Shown piece after piece: positions 2,421 through 21,066 of a stretch of DNA of 21,592 nucleotides. This DNA comes from a virus. Each line of letters opens with the position of its first letter. Within the stretch, counting starts at the first letter, position 1. The stretch spans positions 1-21,592 of IMG/VR virus record IMGVR_UViG_3300033388_001751. One strand, written 5' to 3'. A program made the position numbers and the translations under genes. The notes under the pieces were generated by a model, which was not told the DNA's origin, made no database searches, and saw only the letters and a list, made by a program, of their open reading frames with translations.

Positions 2421-2471
2421 TTATGAGTAGTCATCTTTCTTAAGCCGTTTCTTGCGCTGTCTCTTATTCAC
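2421..2471 (-). CDS. Possible 16-residue basic peptide
   Basis: A GTG-started reading frame of 16 codons that overlaps the end of the upstream leftward gene by 8 bases. The peptide is very basic in its first part (MNKRQRKKRLKK) and ends DDYS. The stop-start overlap fits the tight packing of this leftward cluster, and short basic peptides of this kind are annotated in some phages. However, I see no clear ribosome binding site, and a frame this short is expected by chance. Function unknown; reality uncertain. Confidence 0.2.
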   Translation of the reverse strand: MNKRQRKKRLKKDDYS

Positions 2472-2661
2472 TACTACACGCTTTGCTTATTATGATAGTT
2501 GCGACTGCAGCTAGTATACCGCTAACTGAGAATAGAGTAATTAGTTGCACTTGTAAAGGTTTCAAGAATACTGCCATTGCAACCCAGCCCAAGATAACGC
2601 CAACCCACATCATGAAGAATAGGAAGATGTTGATAATGAACCACAGAGTCTTGTCTTTCAT
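2464..2661 (-). CDS. Small membrane protein with two transmembrane helices
   Basis: A 65-residue hydrophobic protein with two probable membrane helices, about residues 7-33 (LWFIINIFLFFMMWVGVILGW and onward) and 38-60 (VQLITLFSVSGILAAVATIII), and short polar ends (MKDKT at the start, SKACSSE at the end). Its ATG shares one base with the stop of the upstream gene, and AGAAGGAG lies 7 bases before the start, so it is well supported as the late gene of the leftward operon. Size and topology allow a holin-like or superinfection-type membrane protein, but no family motif is visible and holins usually sit beside an endolysin, which is absent here. Function unassigned. Confidence 0.7.
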   Translation of the reverse strand: MKDKTLWFIINIFLFFMMWVGVILGWVAMAVFLKPLQVQLITLFSVSGILAAVATIIISKACSSE

Positions 2662-2849
2662 CAGCTCGCTCCTTCTAAGAACTTCTGAGCTATCCAGAGC
2701 ATGTCTATAGCCGTCTGAGTCTCGTAACTATTCAAAGGAGTTCCCTTACGAATTTTCTCCCTCACCACTTCGCAATGTTCTATAGTCTGAGACCTTTTAT
2801 GTATATTACCTAAGAGGAGTGTCGCAGAGTAATTCCTGACGTCGTTCAT
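2661..2849 (-). CDS. Hypothetical 62-residue protein of the leftward cassette
   Basis: A soluble, probably helical protein (MNDVRNYSATLLLGNIHKR, with TAIDMLWIAQKFLEGAS at the end). I recognise no family. Its start overlaps the stop of the upstream leftward gene in an ATGA arrangement, and its own stop shares a base with the start of the downstream membrane protein gene, which argues for translation as part of one message. A purine-rich AAGAGAGA lies a few bases before the start. Function unknown; support comes from operon geometry and sensible composition, not homology. Confidence 0.6.
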   Translation of the reverse strand: MNDVRNYSATLLLGNIHKRSQTIEHCEVVREKIRKGTPLNSYETQTAIDMLWIAQKFLEGAS

Positions 2850-3058
2850 TTTCCATGTCTCTCTTTTAAAATGTTTAAGGCGTCAAGAGCACCCCGTTCA
2901 AAGTCGTCAGGTTTGAGCTTCCTGGTGACTCGGGTTCTAAGCTCTTCGATAGAACGCCCTTTATTGTAATACTCATTACAGGCCCAGGCCCTGCCCTTCC
3001 AATAAGGAGAATCATCTTCCTTAGAGTTAACGCAGAACAGGATCAAGACCTGTAACAT
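2846..3058 (-). CDS. Hypothetical protein with hydrophobic N-terminus, uncertain start
   Basis: A 70-residue frame whose body, SKEDDSPYWKGRAWACNEYY then charged helices to LNILKERHGK, looks like a real soluble domain. The first residues (MLQVLILFCVN) are hydrophobic. The ATG at 3058 has no ribosome binding site. Upstream in the same frame the hydrophobic run continues without an ordinary start codon (IEFAILMLQVLILFC), and the purine run GGAGACTAGGG lies near an ATC codon at 3076. Translation could therefore start from an unusual codon or be coupled to the lipoprotein gene ending 22 bases upstream. Its stop overlaps the next gene by ATGA. It may be membrane-anchored. No family recognised. Confidence 0.55.
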   Translation of the reverse strand: MLQVLILFCVNSKEDDSPYWKGRAWACNEYYNKGRSIEELRTRVTRKLKPDDFERGALDALNILKERHGK

Positions 3059-3080
3059 GAGTATAGCGAATTCGATGACC

Positions 3081-3218
3081 CTAGTCTCCGTCTCTCAGGA
3101 TAACAGGACCAGCCGGAGTGTTGAATACTCCAGACCATTTAGGGAGTTTGACTCCTCCTTCAGGGACCGCACACCCCATCACCGACATAAGCACCAAAAT
3201 CAAAAGCAATTTCTTCAT
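3081..3218 (-). CDS. 45-residue putative lipoprotein
   Basis: A very short gene with strong support. MKKLLLILVLMSVMGC is a compact lipoprotein signal: two lysines, a hydrophobic core and a lipobox-like VMGC. The mature part would be only 30 residues (CAVPEGGVKLPKWSGVFNTP and ten more). GAGGAG lies 8 bases before the ATG, and the start overlaps the stop of the upstream gene in an ATGA arrangement. By family rules it would be lipidated at the cysteine and anchored in a membrane facing the periplasm. It is smaller than typical Rz1 outer-membrane spanins and less proline-rich. A surface-exclusion or spanin-like role is possible but only inferred. Confidence 0.65.
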   Translation of the reverse strand: MKKLLLILVLMSVMGCAVPEGGVKLPKWSGVFNTPAGPVILRDGD

Positions 3219-3496
3219 TTGACGTTCTCCTCTTTGTTAATTAAAATATAGTCTTTTCTGCGATTTACTACGTACGCAACGCCTTTGTACGTTGCTCTAT
3301 AGGAAAGTTTAGGTAGTATTAAGGCATTTAATTTAGTACTTAACGTAGACTTGACCACATGCAATTCACGGTCTTTGATAAGCGGGTTGTCGGGATCTGG
3401 GTCGTACGGATCAATATAGATCTTAAAACCTTCACCAGTTAACTTGACAACGTTGAGACTATGATCATCCATGGCCCGCGAGAATCCTTTACTCAT
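3215..3496 (-). CDS. Hypothetical 93-residue protein of the leftward cassette
   Basis: I chose the start at 3496 (MSKGFSRAMDDHS) because AAGGAG precedes it at good spacing and its A is shared with the stop of the upstream gene (TAATG). A longer in-frame version starting at 3565 would run antisense-like through that gene. The protein is mixed alpha/beta in appearance, with an acidic proline-rich loop (DPYDPDPDNP) at about residues 32-41 and a basic C-terminal half (YKGVAYVVNRRKDYILINK). No signal peptide or membrane segment is visible. I recognise no family and assign no function. Its position between two clearly coupled genes makes it real. Confidence 0.65.
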   Translation of the reverse strand: MSKGFSRAMDDHSLNVVKLTGEGFKIYIDPYDPDPDNPLIKDRELHVVKSTLSTKLNALILPKLSYRATYKGVAYVVNRRKDYILINKEENVK

Positions 3497-3660
3497 TACA
3501 TTTTCTCCTTCAATTGATTTAGACGTTTTGAGACTTCTTTCCGAGCCAGTACCGTTCGTCCACATACTGGTGGATCGGTATCATTCATATCCCAGCGAGT
3601 CTTACACTCAGGACAAAAGAACTCTTGACCTTGGGACTGGGCTTGGCAATAAGGTTTCAT
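3496..3660 (-). CDS. Small cysteine-rich protein, probable zinc ribbon-like fold
   Basis: A 54-residue protein with four cysteines at positions 5, 16, 19 and 33; the central FFCPECKTRW is a typical CxxC knuckle. The C-terminal 20 residues are basic and helical (RKEVSKRLNQLKEK). Such proteins usually bind zinc and can contact nucleic acid or protein, but the spacing C-x10-C-x2-C-x13-C is irregular, so the metal site is inferred. Start at 3660 is chosen because it overlaps the DUF4031 stop (ATGA) and has AAGGAA 5 bases upstream. An upstream in-frame ATG at 3678 lies inside the DUF4031 gene. Function unknown. Confidence 0.6.
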   Translation of the reverse strand: MKPYCQAQSQGQEFFCPECKTRWDMNDTDPPVCGRTVLARKEVSKRLNQLKEKM

Positions 3661-3941
3661 GGGAGTTCCTTGGCCCACTCACGGACTCTCTTGAACACTC
3701 CTAATAAATCTTTCCCGAGTTCCATCTCTACCGCCCCTAGCTCGATCGCTTTATCTCGTCTAGACTCTGTGAGGTCATAATGAGGGAGAGACTTAGGTTG
3801 GAACCACTCTTTCTTCATACCGATAGCTTGAGCCATCTCGTGGAGTTCTTCTAAAGAATCTGCCAATAGGTGACAATTTTTAGTACTCCGACCTCTGAGC
3901 ACCCACCCATGGTCCATAAGAGGATCTACATATACTGCCAT
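3657..3941 (-). CDS. DUF4031 family protein
   Basis: A 94-residue protein that closely fits the DUF4031 pattern: it opens MAVYVDPLMDHGWVLRGRS, continues with CHLLADSLEELHEMA, then GMKKEWFQ, then SLPHYDLTESRRDKAIELGA. The family is found in bacteria and phages and has no established biochemical role; the conserved Asp, His and Trp residues suggest a binding or catalytic pocket. The C-terminus here is extended by about 20 residues beyond the core (ELGKDLLGVFKRVREWAKELP). It is the second gene of the leftward operon, one base after the first, with GAGGG 9 bases before the ATG. It is the only recognised family in this cassette. Confidence 0.85.
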   Translation of the reverse strand: MAVYVDPLMDHGWVLRGRSTKNCHLLADSLEELHEMAQAIGMKKEWFQPKSLPHYDLTESRRDKAIELGAVEMELGKDLLGVFKRVREWAKELP

Positions 3942-3942
3942 C

Positions 3943-4131
3943 CTATATTTCCCTCTTTATCATTTCCAACAATATAGCTTGAATCTCTTCATCTCCGAAA
4001 CCTTCTTCTCTGGCATCCTCGACGAGGATTGGGAGGGCTTGAGTTAATTCTCTGAGAGCTCTTCCAGTGGCTATCCCTTCAAATCTTTCTAGTTGAGGTG
4101 ATTTTCCGTCTGATGTATGGAATCGTGTCAT
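3943..4131 (-). CDS. First gene of the leftward cassette, hypothetical 62 residues
   Basis: The start at 4131 (MTRFHTSDGKSPQLERFEGI) has AAGGAG a few bases upstream. A longer version from 4152 would place this ribosome site inside the coding sequence and begin close to the predicted promoter. The protein is charged and helical, with an acidic C-terminal half (LVEDAREEGFGDEEIQAILL). Being first behind the promoter, adjacent to palindromic operator-like repeats, it could be an autoregulator, but no helix-turn-helix is evident, so that is only a thought. No family recognised. The next gene starts one base after its stop. Confidence 0.65.
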   Translation of the reverse strand: MTRFHTSDGKSPQLERFEGIATGRALRELTQALPILVEDAREEGFGDEEIQAILLEMIKREI

Positions 4132-4158: not shown

Positions 4159-4187
4159 ATTATACTAGTCTTTACGGAAAAAGTAAA
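4159..4187 (-). promoter_or_regulatory. Leftward sigma70-like promoter of the small-gene cassette
   Basis: Read on the minus strand: -35 TTTACT (complement of 4182-4187), a 17-base spacer, then a perfect -10 TATAAT (complement of 4159-4164). Transcription would begin about 20-25 bases before the AAGGAG of the first leftward gene. The -35 and spacer coincide with the palindrome at 4171-4187, so a protein bound there would block the promoter. This is the best promoter match I see in the window. Confidence 0.7.
4171..4187. promoter_or_regulatory. Operator-like palindrome 1 (TTTAC-N7-GTAAA)
   Basis: TTTACGGAAAAAGTAAA, an inverted repeat with 5-bp arms (6 if the flanking C and G are counted) around a 7-base spacer. 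It lies across the spacer and -35 of the leftward promoter. A near copy lies 24 bases to the right. The arms resemble -35 hexamers, so some of the symmetry could be promoter sequence and not a repressor site. Confidence 0.5.
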
Positions 4188-4194
4188 GGCCTTC

Positions 4195-4211
4195 TTTACG
4201 GAAAACGTAAA
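4195..4211. promoter_or_regulatory. Operator-like palindrome 2 (TTTAC-N7-GTAAA)
   Basis: TTTACGGAAAACGTAAA, with 6-bp arms TTTACG/CGTAAA. It matches palindrome 1 at 15 of 17 positions. The two copies are 24 bases apart, slightly more than two helical turns, which would allow two dimers to bind on nearly the same face of the DNA upstream of the leftward promoter. Repressor or activator identity is unknown. Confidence 0.5.
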
Positions 4212-4292: not shown

Positions 4293-4325
4293 AAAGAGGG
4301 CCATCCGGTCCTCTTTTCTTTTTTA
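4293..4325 (+). terminator. Strong rightward intrinsic terminator
   Basis: The 10-bp stem AAAGAGGGCC (4293-4302) pairs with GGTCCTCTTT (4307-4316) around a 4-base loop ATCC, with one G-T pair, and is followed by a T-rich run through 4325. The T-tract makes it a rightward terminator only. No rightward gene lies just before it: it must end either read-through from the head genes, antisense across the leftward cassette, or a short RNA begun in 4212-4260. It insulates the protease promoter downstream. Confidence 0.8.
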
Positions 4326-4335
4326 TAAATAACAC

Positions 4336-4363
4336 TTTACTTTTTTGTAAATTAGAATATAGT
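4336..4363 (+). promoter_or_regulatory. Rightward promoter for the protease/capsid block, with palindrome 3
   Basis: -35-like TTTACT at 4336-4341, a 16-base spacer and -10-like TATAGT at 4358-4363, placed about 25 bases before the protease ATG at 4387. The stretch 4336-4351 is also TTTAC-N6-GTAAA, matching the two leftward-side palindromes in its arms but with a spacer one base shorter. The strong terminator just upstream makes a new promoter here necessary. The match to consensus is fair, not perfect. Confidence 0.5.
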
Positions 4364-4386: not shown

Positions 4387-5583
4387 ATGTCAGAGATTGA
4401 AACAATCTTAACTTATATTACAGACAAGCTCGACTTCGTTAACACGAAAAGAGAGAAGAGTTCAGAAGGGTACTTGATAGTAAGAGATAGTCGCCTGGCC
4501 AAAACAGGTGTACTCAACTATCGATCTTTTGAGATACCATTCATGACGGGAGCTCCTTCCGACTTACCAAGAGACCAAGTTATACGAGTCTATAGGGGAG
4601 AGCAAGAGCTCTTCAAACCGGAAGTCTTAGACTCCTTTAAATCCAAACCAATCACTTTAAATCACCCAGGGTCACTAGTTGACTCGCGTACTATTAAAAA
4701 GGATTCAGTCGGCTTCTCCAAAGACGATGTAGATTCTAAAGGCGAGTTTATGGAGTCTACACTAGTGATCACAGACTTTGAAACAATTAAAGAAGTAGAA
4801 GCAGGAACCAAAGAGCTCTCGCTCGGGTATACTGCAGATATACTTTGGCAGCCTGGAGTCGCACCCGATGGCTCTCCTTACGATGCTGTTCAACGGAACA
4901 TTCAAGGCAACCATATCGCTATAGTGCCAAGAGGTCGTTGCGGCTCCGACTGCCATATTTCAGACTCACAACCCCAAAACAAAAATAGAGGTAAACACAT
5001 GCCTGAACTCCAAAAGGTAATACTCGACGGAATTTCGTATGATTGTCCTGCTCAAACAGCTCAGGCATTTGCGAAAGTCTTAGAGGGTAAGGACAGTCAG
5101 ATTAAAGTCCTTAAAGATACCAAAAAAGAGCTCGAAGATGAGCTTGAAGAGAAGGAAGAAGAAGCCAAGAAGACTGAGGACGAGATGCAAGCCAAGCTTG
5201 ACGAAGCCGAGTCTAAAAAGGTTTCTGACGCTGATCTCGACACTCTTGTAGAAGAGCGCAAAGCAGTTATCGATACTGCAACTTCAATCGTTAAAGATTT
5301 CGACCCCAAGGGCAAGTCTAACGACGAAATCCGTAAAGCTGTTGTCATGGACAGATGTCCTGACCTTCCTGCTGATAAGTCCCAGGACTATATCAATGCT
5401 CGTTTTGACGGCCTGGCTGATAGCGTTAAATCTAACGAAGGCTCTGCCATCTTAGACGCTATGACTGACCACGCCAAAGGAGCTGGCGAGGTGAACGACT
5501 CTATGGGTGACGCCAATATGTCTTACTCGGAAAAGATCCGTGCTAAGAAGATCCAAGAACGTAAAGCTAAGAGAGGTGCATAA
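4387..5583 (+). CDS. DUF2213 prohead protease with C-terminal scaffold
   Basis: A 398-residue two-part protein. Residues 1-200 match DUF2213, a phage prohead protease family: ITLNHPGSLVD around His93, KELSLGYTADILW with Ser145, and NHIAIVPRGRCG with His176. These His and Ser residues are the likely catalytic ones, by analogy with other prohead proteases. Residues 205-398 form the scaffold: a lysine/glutamate coiled coil at about 235-280 followed by a helical region. The protease trims scaffold and capsid proteins so the prohead can expand. An internal start at 4999 would make the scaffold alone. AGAGGA at 4373-4378 precedes the first ATG by 8 bases. The capsid genes follow directly. Confidence 0.88.
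   Translation: MSEIETILTYITDKLDFVNTKREKSSEGYLIVRDSRLAKTGVLNYRSFEIPFMTGAPSDLPRDQVIRVYRGEQELFKPEVLDSFKSKPITLNHPGSLVDSRTIKKDSVGFSKDDVDSKGEFMESTLVITDFETIKEVEAGTKELSLGYTADILWQPGVAPDGSPYDAVQRNIQGNHIAIVPRGRCGSDCHISDSQPQNKNRGKHMPELQKVILDGISYDCPAQTAQAFAKVLEGKDSQIKVLKDTKKELEDELEEKEEEAKKTEDEMQAKLDEAESKKVSDADLDTLVEERKAVIDTATSIVKDFDPKGKSNDEIRKAVVMDRCPDLPADKSQDYINARFDGLADSVKSNEGSAILDAMTDHAKGAGEVNDSMGDANMSYSEKIRAKKIQERKAKRGA
4999..5583 (+). CDS. Nested scaffolding protein from an internal in-frame start
   Basis: The ATG at 4999 is in frame with the protease gene and follows AGAGGT at 4987-4992 by 6 bases, a much better ribosome site than expected inside a gene. The product would be 194 residues (MPELQKVILDGISYDCPAQT onward), starting just after the protease domain ends in a polar linker (SDSQPQNKNRGKH) and including the whole coiled-coil region. 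This copies the lambda C/Nu3 plan, in which the scaffold is made in excess from a start within the protease gene. The site and the domain boundary are seen; the separate protein is inferred. Confidence 0.55.
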   Translation: MPELQKVILDGISYDCPAQTAQAFAKVLEGKDSQIKVLKDTKKELEDELEEKEEEAKKTEDEMQAKLDEAESKKVSDADLDTLVEERKAVIDTATSIVKDFDPKGKSNDEIRKAVVMDRCPDLPADKSQDYINARFDGLADSVKSNEGSAILDAMTDHAKGAGEVNDSMGDANMSYSEKIRAKKIQERKAKRGA

Positions 5584-11330: not shown

Positions 11331-11786
11331 ATGCTCACAAACAAAACAAAGGTAATAGACGGCAGCACTTTCTTTGCCAGTCAACTTCCTCCCCTTCAGT
11401 CTATGAAACTGTTTGCGGTGGTTGCTAAAACTCTCGGTCCTGCTTTAAAAGGTATGGGGAAAGCTGATTTAAAAGGTCTTGTAGATCAAGTCAAAACTAA
11501 AGACGATGTAGACTTAGAAAGTGCCATGGTCATAGTTTCTGAGATCGCTGAAGGGCTGGACGAGAATAGGCTGGAAACCCTAGTCAAGAAGTGCTTGATT
11601 TCAGACAGTGTAAAGAAAGACGGAAAAGCCATAATCAATATAGACGCTGAATTTGAAGACCCTATTACGGTCCTCAAGGCTGTTGTTTTTGTTTTGGAGG
11701 TGAACTTCAAGAATTTTTTAGGAAAGTTGGGTTCCTTGCGGAAGGAAGCGGAGAGCCCGTCTATCTCGAAAAAACAAGAAGCTTAG
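11331..11786 (+). CDS. Tail assembly chaperone (short form, G-like)
   Basis: A 151-residue helical protein between tail tube and tape measure, the fixed position of the tail assembly chaperone. It starts MLTNKTKVIDGSTFFASQLP, then PLQSMKLFAVVAKTLGPALK, typical of the chaperones of this lineage, which coat the tape measure during tail assembly and are absent from the virion. AAAGGT lies about 9 bases before the ATG. Near its end it contains T TTT TTA in the correct frame, so a fraction of ribosomes should move to the -1 frame and make a longer form. The short form ends SISKKQEA. Confidence 0.85.
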   Translation: MLTNKTKVIDGSTFFASQLPPLQSMKLFAVVAKTLGPALKGMGKADLKGLVDQVKTKDDVDLESAMVIVSEIAEGLDENRLETLVKKCLISDSVKKDGKAIINIDAEFEDPITVLKAVVFVLEVNFKNFLGKLGSLRKEAESPSISKKQEA

Positions 11787-11965
11787 ACCTCCCCGACTGG
11801 TGCGACAATAACATGGAAATGCTAGTTTGGGCACCAGTATTAGCCAACCCTCCTATGGCTACTTACGGAGAAGTGGTAAGGGGAGAATATAGTATAGATG
11901 ATATATTGCAAATGAATCTGCTTATGAGTTATAAAGGCAAGTTCATGAATAAGGAAGAGATATGA
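11331..11965 (+). CDS. Tail assembly chaperone, -1 frameshift product (GT-like)
   Basis: Made by joining 11331-11720 to 11720-11965 after a -1 shift at T TTT TTA (11714-11720), giving about 211 residues. After the shift the frame reads RKVGFLAEGSGEPVYLEKTR, SLDLPDWCDNNMEMLVWAPV, LANPPMATYGEVVRGEYSID and DILQMNLLMSYKGKFMNKEE, which is clearly coding and has no start of its own near its beginning. In lambda and most long-tailed phages the chaperone gene is followed by such a T extension that binds tail tube subunits. The extended frame ends with ATGA overlap with the tape measure start, as expected. The shift is inferred; its efficiency is unknown. Confidence 0.85.
11714..11747 (+). promoter_or_regulatory. 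Programmed -1 frameshift site with downstream hairpin
   Basis: The heptamer T TTT TTA occupies 11714-11720 with the correct codon phase (codons TTT TTA in the short form). It is the X XXY YYZ type used by HIV-1. Eleven bases later TTCCTT (11732-11737) can pair with AAGGAA (11742-11747) across a GCGG loop, a candidate stimulatory hairpin, although the spacer is somewhat longer than usual and the stem is modest. The -1 frame is open from 11657, so the site lies inside the overlap. Confidence 0.8.
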
Positions 11966-20315: not shown

Positions 20316-20743
20316 ACCTGGTTAAAGGGAATCGTCGTAAAGTATGCTCTAAGTATATGGAACGCTTCATCCAGGGCCTCGACTATAGAGAGCTCACTAA
20401 GGCTGAGAGAAAGGCTACTAGAAAGCGATATAAGTATGAGATGCTGGCAGACCGTATGGTATTCACCAAAGTCACTGGGTATCTCATATCTCATGAATAT
20501 TTTGAACTATATGAAGACGGACGTCTCCTCATAAAGAAAGGATATCGTTGGGACGGGCCTTCTGGAGTCACCTTAGATACTGCCAGTTTCATGAGAAGTT
20601 CATGCGTACACGACGTGTTCTTCCAATGCCTTCGCGAAAACCTTTTTATGCTTATCATCGTACCTCCTCACCTATTGATGAAAGAAGTAGGAGAGTGGAA
20701 AAGATTGTTCACTTTATCCAATAGAGCAAAGGAACTGATATGA
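20312..20743 (+). CDS. DUF1353 family protein
   Basis: A 143-residue protein with the DUF1353 pattern in its second half: KKGYRWDGPSGVTLDTASFM, then RSSCVHDVFFQCLRENLF. The WDGPSG and the HD pair are the conserved points of this phage family, whose biochemical function is not established. The first 40 residues are unusually basic (NRRKVCSKYMERFIQGLDYR; KAERKATRKRYKYEMLADR). It overlaps both neighbours by 4 bases. In many phages DUF1353 genes lie among late or lysis genes, which agrees with the possible spanin genes on either side. Confidence 0.83.
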   Translation: MNLVKGNRRKVCSKYMERFIQGLDYRELTKAERKATRKRYKYEMLADRMVFTKVTGYLISHEYFELYEDGRLLIKKGYRWDGPSGVTLDTASFMRSSCVHDVFFQCLRENLFMLIIVPPHLLMKEVGEWKRLFTLSNRAKELI

Positions 20744-21066
20744 ATTTACTAAACTATAAAGATGCTAAGAATATAATCATATGGCTTTTAATGGCCCTTA
20801 TAGGATTGGCCACTTATGTGTATAAGTCTGACCAAGGAGCTCTGAAAACTAGATACGATGAAGTCATCTCGTCAGTAGAAAAGAACAATCTATCAGTGCT
20901 TTCTTCAGTAGAAGATATGCATAAGAACCTTGAAGAGAAAGTCAGAGAAGTCACTACTGAACAAAAACAGATTAAAGAAGGTCAGCAACGCATGGAGATA
21001 GATGTCGCCAGGCTCAAAGCTCTAAGAGAAGCTGAACATGATATAATAAAAAGAAATAATCCTTAA
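20740..21066 (+). CDS. Membrane-anchored coiled-coil protein, possible inner-membrane spanin
   Basis: A 108-residue protein with one membrane helix at about residues 11-28 (NIIIWLLMALIGLATYVYKS) followed by a long charged coiled coil (SSVEDMHKNLEEKVREVTTE, QKQIKEGQQRMEIDVARLKA). This N-in, C-out layout is that of Rz-type i-spanins and of other small phage membrane proteins such as XhlA. AAGGAA lies close before the ATGA overlap start. With the lipoprotein at 20133 it could form a spanin pair, but no endolysin or holin is visible in the window, so the lysis role is an inference from topology. Confidence 0.65.
   Translation: MNLLNYKDAKNIIIWLLMALIGLATYVYKSDQGALKTRYDEVISSVEKNNLSVLSSVEDMHKNLEEKVREVTTEQKQIKEGQQRMEIDVARLKALREAEHDIIKRNNP

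Follow-up and report, generated by a model that had tools for sequence, protein, structure and literature searches.

Related arrangements in described phages

Dwarf myoviruses of the phiPLPE group have a conserved structural module, while their other modules are variable (PMC3391216), and in Bcep781-like phages the non-structural genes are scattered among opposed clusters (PMC2771037). In several described phages, small genes on the opposite strand are found next to, or within, the run of head genes. In Klebsiella phage vB_KpnM_JustaPhage (Jedunavirus), whose structural operon is related to the one described here, eight small leftward genes, partly overlapping (gp13-gp6), occupy precisely the interval that separates the head protein gene from that of the head maturation protease; they include a DUF3310/nucleotide-kinase-like gene and a DUF551 gene, among others. 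Aeromonas phages 56 and 4_D05, Iodobacter phage phiPLPE, and Burkholderia phage Bcep781 have small, variable genes, mostly without an assigned function, in the same junction position and orientation. In Vibrio phages 12E28.1 and K443, leftward sets of small variable genes follow the terminase (terL), portal, and head genes, directly behind the head gene.

Accessory genes known as morons are usually single, with their own promoter and terminator and a distinct base composition (PMC4378225).

A leftward block of small genes between two head genes

The window (the whole stretch of DNA analysed, a 21,592-base virus record from IMG/VR) is a fragment, and the half of the genome with the early and lysogeny genes lies outside it. 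Within it, a leftward block of eight tiny genes sits inserted between two head genes of a small myovirus-like phage: a Mu F-like head morphogenesis gene (PF04233; 1579..2409, plus strand) on the left, and a DUF2213 head maturation protease gene (4387..5583, plus strand) on the right, both recognized by profile match. The eight ORFs (A to H, 45-94 codons) run leftward within positions 4131-2421 of the minus strand, each overlapping the next or separated from it by no more than 22 nt. Leftward ORFs of at least 45 aa fill 96% of 2421-4131, compared to 43% for the plus strand; in 1,000 dinucleotide shuffles, the minus-strand tiling had a mean of 21% and a maximum of 63%. An earlier note on this DNA had proposed eight or nine genes. 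Eight are borne out by this tiling; the ninth, a possible ORF I of 16 codons with a GTG start (2421..2471, minus strand) and a very basic 16 aa product (MNKRQRKKRLKKDDYS), is doubtful as a gene.

Nearly all of these genes had been described as joined by ATGA or TAATG overlaps. This is the case for B-C, D-E, and F-G (all ATGA) and for C-D (TAATG), but A-B and E-F have gaps (1 and 22 nt, respectively), and the overlaps at G-H and H-I are TGATG and GTGA.

Codon scores place A, B, E, F, G, and H each above 96% or more of wrong-frame segments; the score of D is borderline, and C and I are unsupported. ORFs C and D both have good ribosome sites; C is accepted because of this site and its CxxC match (below), rather than its codon use. 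The codon use of most of the cassette ORFs resembles that of the same phage's structural genes, and their ribosome sites are good. The GC content of the cassette (0.435) is that of the window (0.436), so it is not compositionally foreign. No non-coding RNA or tRNA was found that might mark an integration or insertion event.

Further along the window, 11331-11965 encodes a likely tail assembly chaperone pair. The ORF at 11331-11786 ends just past GAAAAAAC, and the -1 frame is open from 11768 to 11965, reaching the start of the tape measure gene, as for a programmed frameshift.

Predicted cassette proteins

ORF A (3943..4131, minus strand), the first gene of the cassette, has a strong ribosome site (AAGGAG) and encodes an acidic, family-less protein of 62 aa. 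ORF B (3657..3941, minus strand; 94 aa) is a DUF4031 protein, matching PF13223 (E=4.5e-20) and phrog_4887 (E=5.2e-33). Its PF13223 score is 72.1 bits, against a curated cut-off of 25.6, and no other cassette protein reaches a Pfam cut-off, in agreement with the earlier note's statement that DUF4031 is the sole known family here. Four DUF4031 residues (D6, H24, H54, and D56) are conserved among 40 aligned members, and might belong to a metal or catalytic site. The fold was considered as a route to DUF4031 function and given up: an AlphaFold2 model of B, from an alignment of 40 viral members, is confident (mean pLDDT 91), yet it has no match at E<=0.001 among PDB and viral structures. There is also no sequence relative of B in the PDB.

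ORF C (3496..3660, minus strand; 54 aa) encodes a CxxC zinc-ribbon-like protein with weak matches to phrog_8641 (E=2e-6) and phrog_35049 (E=2e-4), both without an assigned function. ORF E (3081..3218, minus strand; 45 aa) has a signal peptide and a lipobox (VMGC), and is a predicted lipoprotein. ORF F (2846..3058, minus strand; 70 aa) begins at an ATG without a convincing ribosome site; its residues 19-66 match phrog_10502 (E=7.6e-5), a PHROG without an assigned function. The remaining three products are those of ORFs D (3215..3496, minus strand; 93 aa), G (2661..2849, minus strand; 62 aa), and H (2464..2661, minus strand; 65 aa, with two predicted membrane helices). A single-sequence structure model of D is unusable (pLDDT 41). 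The CxxC protein, the 45-residue lipoprotein, and the two-helix protein that had been picked out earlier are real as sequence features. A hydrophobic N-terminus had also been ascribed to F, but from its ATG the best 19-residue Kyte-Doolittle mean is 0.29, too weak for a membrane helix.

For A, D, G, and H, no relatives were found in any of the libraries and collections searched (Pfam, PHROGs, NCBIfam, PADLOC, phages, plasmids, and viral contigs). Searches by tblastn found no relatives of A, C, D, F, and G, or of E and H, in phages, and none of A, C, D, F, and G in plasmids; nor did peptide-pattern scans for D and F find any among viral contigs. No defence or exclusion homologue was found among the cassette proteins in Pfam, PHROGs, or NCBIfam, and PADLOC gave nothing of note (weak matches to B only, at E values of at least 0.013).

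The control region upstream of ORF A

The interval between ORF A and the protease gene is 255 bases long and ~29% GC. A strong sigma70-type promoter-like site for the cassette (TTTACT-17-TATAAT; 4159..4187, minus strand) has 10 of 12 consensus matches. With it are two near-identical, operator-like 17 bp palindromes (TTTAC[T/G]TTTTCCGTAAA) of the form TTTAC-N7-GTAAA: the first (4171..4187, minus strand; TTTACTTTTTCCGTAAA) supplies the -35 hexamer of the promoter-like site from its first half, and the second (4195..4211, minus strand; TTTACGTTTTCCGTAAA) is 24 bp away. On the other side of the interval, before the protease gene, is a rightward promoter-like site (TTTACT-16-TATAGT, 9/12; 4336..4363, plus strand). 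It is overlapped by a third palindrome (4336-4351; TTTACTTTTTTGTAAA), and lies behind a predicted rightward intrinsic terminator (4293..4325, plus strand) composed of a 10 bp stem (4293-4316), a 4 nt loop, and a T-rich tail. The promoter and operator-like sites attributed to the cassette in the earlier note are thus confirmed as sequence features.

Three TTTAC-N5-8-GTAAA sites in the control region were found in 0 of 2,000 dinucleotide shuffles. Since the palindrome motif itself came from the data, a test in which any five-base arm is allowed is fairer; by this measure, three copies were found in 57 of 2,000 shuffles. The stretch around the rightward terminator has a fold z of -3.2, with the reservation that, taken as a class, terminator-like sites occur no more often than in shuffles. 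No leftward terminator was found after the cassette. Just downstream of it, the 3′ end of the head gene (2350-2390) has a perfect 9 bp inverted repeat (CCCTGGCCA/TGGCCAGGG), lacking a T-run and folding no better than shuffles (z -1.35).

The predicted operators common to both promoter-like sites suggest joint control of the cassette and capsid genes. More speculatively, and in our view improbably, a single regulator acting at all three TTTAC-N6/7-GTAAA sites might govern the leftward cassette together with a restarted capsid operon, in which case the inserted cassette would have brought with it a timing switch splitting the late operon between the head and protease genes. Palindromic operators were seen neither in JustaPhage nor beside the other leftward cassettes checked.

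The head/protease junction in relatives

The head and protease genes had been said to be neighbours in related phages, and this holds for nearly all of the nearest ~100 relatives (median gap 63 bp). Over 121 distinct junctions, a set that includes cultured phages selected for diversity rather than at random, the two are adjacent (gap <300 bp) in 101, again with a median gap of 63 bp; inserts of 0.33 to 3.5 kb are found at 20. The close relatives L026 and L125 have rightward genes there, one encoding a 947-residue protein, while L160 has mainly leftward genes. According to their deposited annotations (the source of gene strand for L163, L165, and L173), leftward genes are found at the junction in JustaPhage (eight), Aeromonas phages 56 and 4_D05, phiPLPE, Bcep781, and Acinetobacter phage 5W. 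The groups with other leftward genes there are Jedunavirus, Popoffvirus, Kunmingvirus, Iodovirus, Naesvirus, an Acinetobacter phage, and Vibrio phages, although for 12E28.1 and K443 no DUF2213 protease match was found within the stretch fetched. A scan of genome contigs for a host copy found one locus, a distant one from Burkholderiaceae, with the genes adjacent.

The survey shows that, in phiPLPE-like dwarf myoviruses, unrelated sets of accessory genes have repeatedly been inserted at the head/protease junction. Insert content varies completely: by phmmer, none of A-I has any similarity to proteins of the other junction inserts, those of JustaPhage included, and the gene content of the Aeromonas, phiPLPE, Bcep781, and Vibrio cassettes is unrelated to that in the window. 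The earlier note would have given up the idea of cargo if all relatives had the same genes, with a known structural role, at this place; the place is the same, but the genes are different. With different gene blocks at the junction in many relatives, the cassette is a further case of an established pattern, in which variable accessory genes, probably expressed early, are lodged between capsid genes.

The nearest relative among the viral contigs scanned (L090; MCP 60%, protease 52-54%), although nearer ones may exist, was considered as a closer view of the junction and set aside, as its contig starts ~140 bp before the protease start and gave no match to the head gene. These first bases (1-140) are AT-rich and include a TTTACT...TATATT promoter-like site, with no recognized head gene end, so that this lineage may carry an insert too.

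Two other arrangements were seen among these phages. In L160, the Mu F-like head morphogenesis protein (944-2698) has ~280 extra residues between DINC and CRCTA, beginning CFLGDSLLSI and ending SNNIITSNC; these resemble an intein or homing insertion. In Vibrio phages L171 and L179, a number of distinct leftward sets of small genes lie between successive packaging and head genes, a strongly interleaved layout.

Cargo of other cassettes and surroundings of DUF4031

Pfam and PHROGs were searched with thirty proteins encoded leftward at these junctions. The Pfam families found were P22 NinX (two), DUF3310, DUF551, a DNA polymerase III beta (sliding-clamp) domain, PAPS reductase, and a winged helix; PHROGs matches were to a RusA-like resolvase, a nucleotide kinase, and a glycosyltransferase. 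Judging by these matches, the recognizable cargo elsewhere consists of early (nin-like) or nucleic-acid-metabolism genes.

In T4-like phages, DUF4031 is encoded in the early region, between NrdC.10 and ModB. These proteins are 66-69% identical to that of gene B over residues 1-73, but their neighbours are unrelated to those of B, and the early regions concerned are those of 165-kb phages. In a Pseudomonas phage, the DUF4031 gene has a Holliday junction resolvase on one side and NinB/NinG on the other, in a nin-like region; elsewhere it adjoins DNA methylases or a Dda-like helicase. The context is not uniform, because in other viral contigs DUF4031 also adjoins terminase and head genes.

Possible roles of the cassette

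We read the eight small accessory genes as a self-contained operon, directed leftward and placed at an insertion hot spot of a phiPLPE-like dwarf myovirus; the operon is most likely of an early or delayed-early, host-takeover type (probability about 0.6). That it is an accessory insert is supported by leftward ORF tiling far beyond chance, and by nearest relatives in which the flanking genes are adjacent and others in which the inserts differ. The nin-like and nucleic-acid-metabolism genes at this junction in relatives, together with the presence of DUF4031 among early genes, point to expression early in infection rather than to lysogenic conversion. Since seven of the eight proteins have no recognizable function, the case for early expression draws on DUF4031 and on where the cassette lies. 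The viral contigs with DUF4031 next to terminase and head genes count against it, as does the absence of the palindromes beside the other leftward cassettes checked.

If this is correct, the cassette would be transcribed soon after infection from the sigma70-type promoter (4187-4159), and its products would adjust host or DNA metabolism ahead of rightward late transcription. A repressor binding the two palindromes could then shut the leftward operon off. Rightward transcription coming from the head gene would end at the terminator (4316-4325), and the new promoter (4336-4363) would restart the interrupted late operon at the protease gene.

The earlier note had leaned toward a moron or an anti-defence/superinfection-exclusion cargo. 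As insertion cargo the cassette stands, being absent from the junction of the nearest relatives. A moron in the strict sense, with genes expressed from a prophage to alter the cell surface or block other phages and with E and H as exclusion proteins, seems unlikely to us. Like the morons of lambdoid and Mu-like phages, the cassette is an accessory insert between genes that are adjacent in relatives, and it has its own promoter (by sequence match), in this case with operators. It also encodes one predicted lipoprotein (E) and one small predicted membrane protein (H), and Ltp-type lipoproteins act in superinfection exclusion in Streptococcus phages (PMC3952083). However, morons are usually single genes, whereas there are eight here, with the composition of the window as a whole and no leftward terminator found; there is no defence-library match of note, and neither the libraries nor tblastn against phages gave relatives of E or H. 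The promoter is overlapped by an operator-like site, which speaks for regulation and not for constitutive expression from a prophage. Lysogeny is also not to be assumed, because the 21.6-kb fragment has no integrase or repressor, nor any other sign of it. What is found instead are the features of a variable leftward cassette, namely leftward genes at a junction of the Mu F head/DUF2213/DUF2184 type and content that differs between phages. Nothing found here points to a specific anti-defence or exclusion role, although single cassette genes may have one.

The insert might alternatively be mainly regulatory, with a promoter region that splits the late operon and leftward antisense transcription that silences the portal and head genes until a repressor stops it. 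One palindrome type common to both divergent promoters, a rightward terminator ahead of the protease gene, and the lack of a detected leftward terminator before the head gene would all fit, but such a role would not call for eight coding genes with ribosome sites, and we regard this as very unlikely. Least probable, by a little, is a displaced lysis set, in which H would be the holin and E the outer-membrane spanin lipoprotein, partnered by F: E does weakly match the Rz-like spanin family phrog_16495 (E=0.009), H has its two predicted membrane helices, and the lysis genes of Bcep781-like phages are scattered, with Rz/Rz1 away from the endolysin and holin (PMC2771037), but the cassette has no endolysin, F has no convincing membrane helix, and a better inner-membrane-spanin-like candidate is encoded in the rightward late operon at 20740-21066 (108 residues, with an N-terminal hydrophobic helix, a long charged helical region, and no family matches).

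Implications

In a widespread myovirus group, variable cassettes of small genes, often on the opposite strand, have docked again and again at the head/protease junction. Comparing this single junction across phages would be a quick way to harvest candidate host-takeover genes, and the paired operators would make it easy to test how a late operon copes with an insertion in the opposite orientation.
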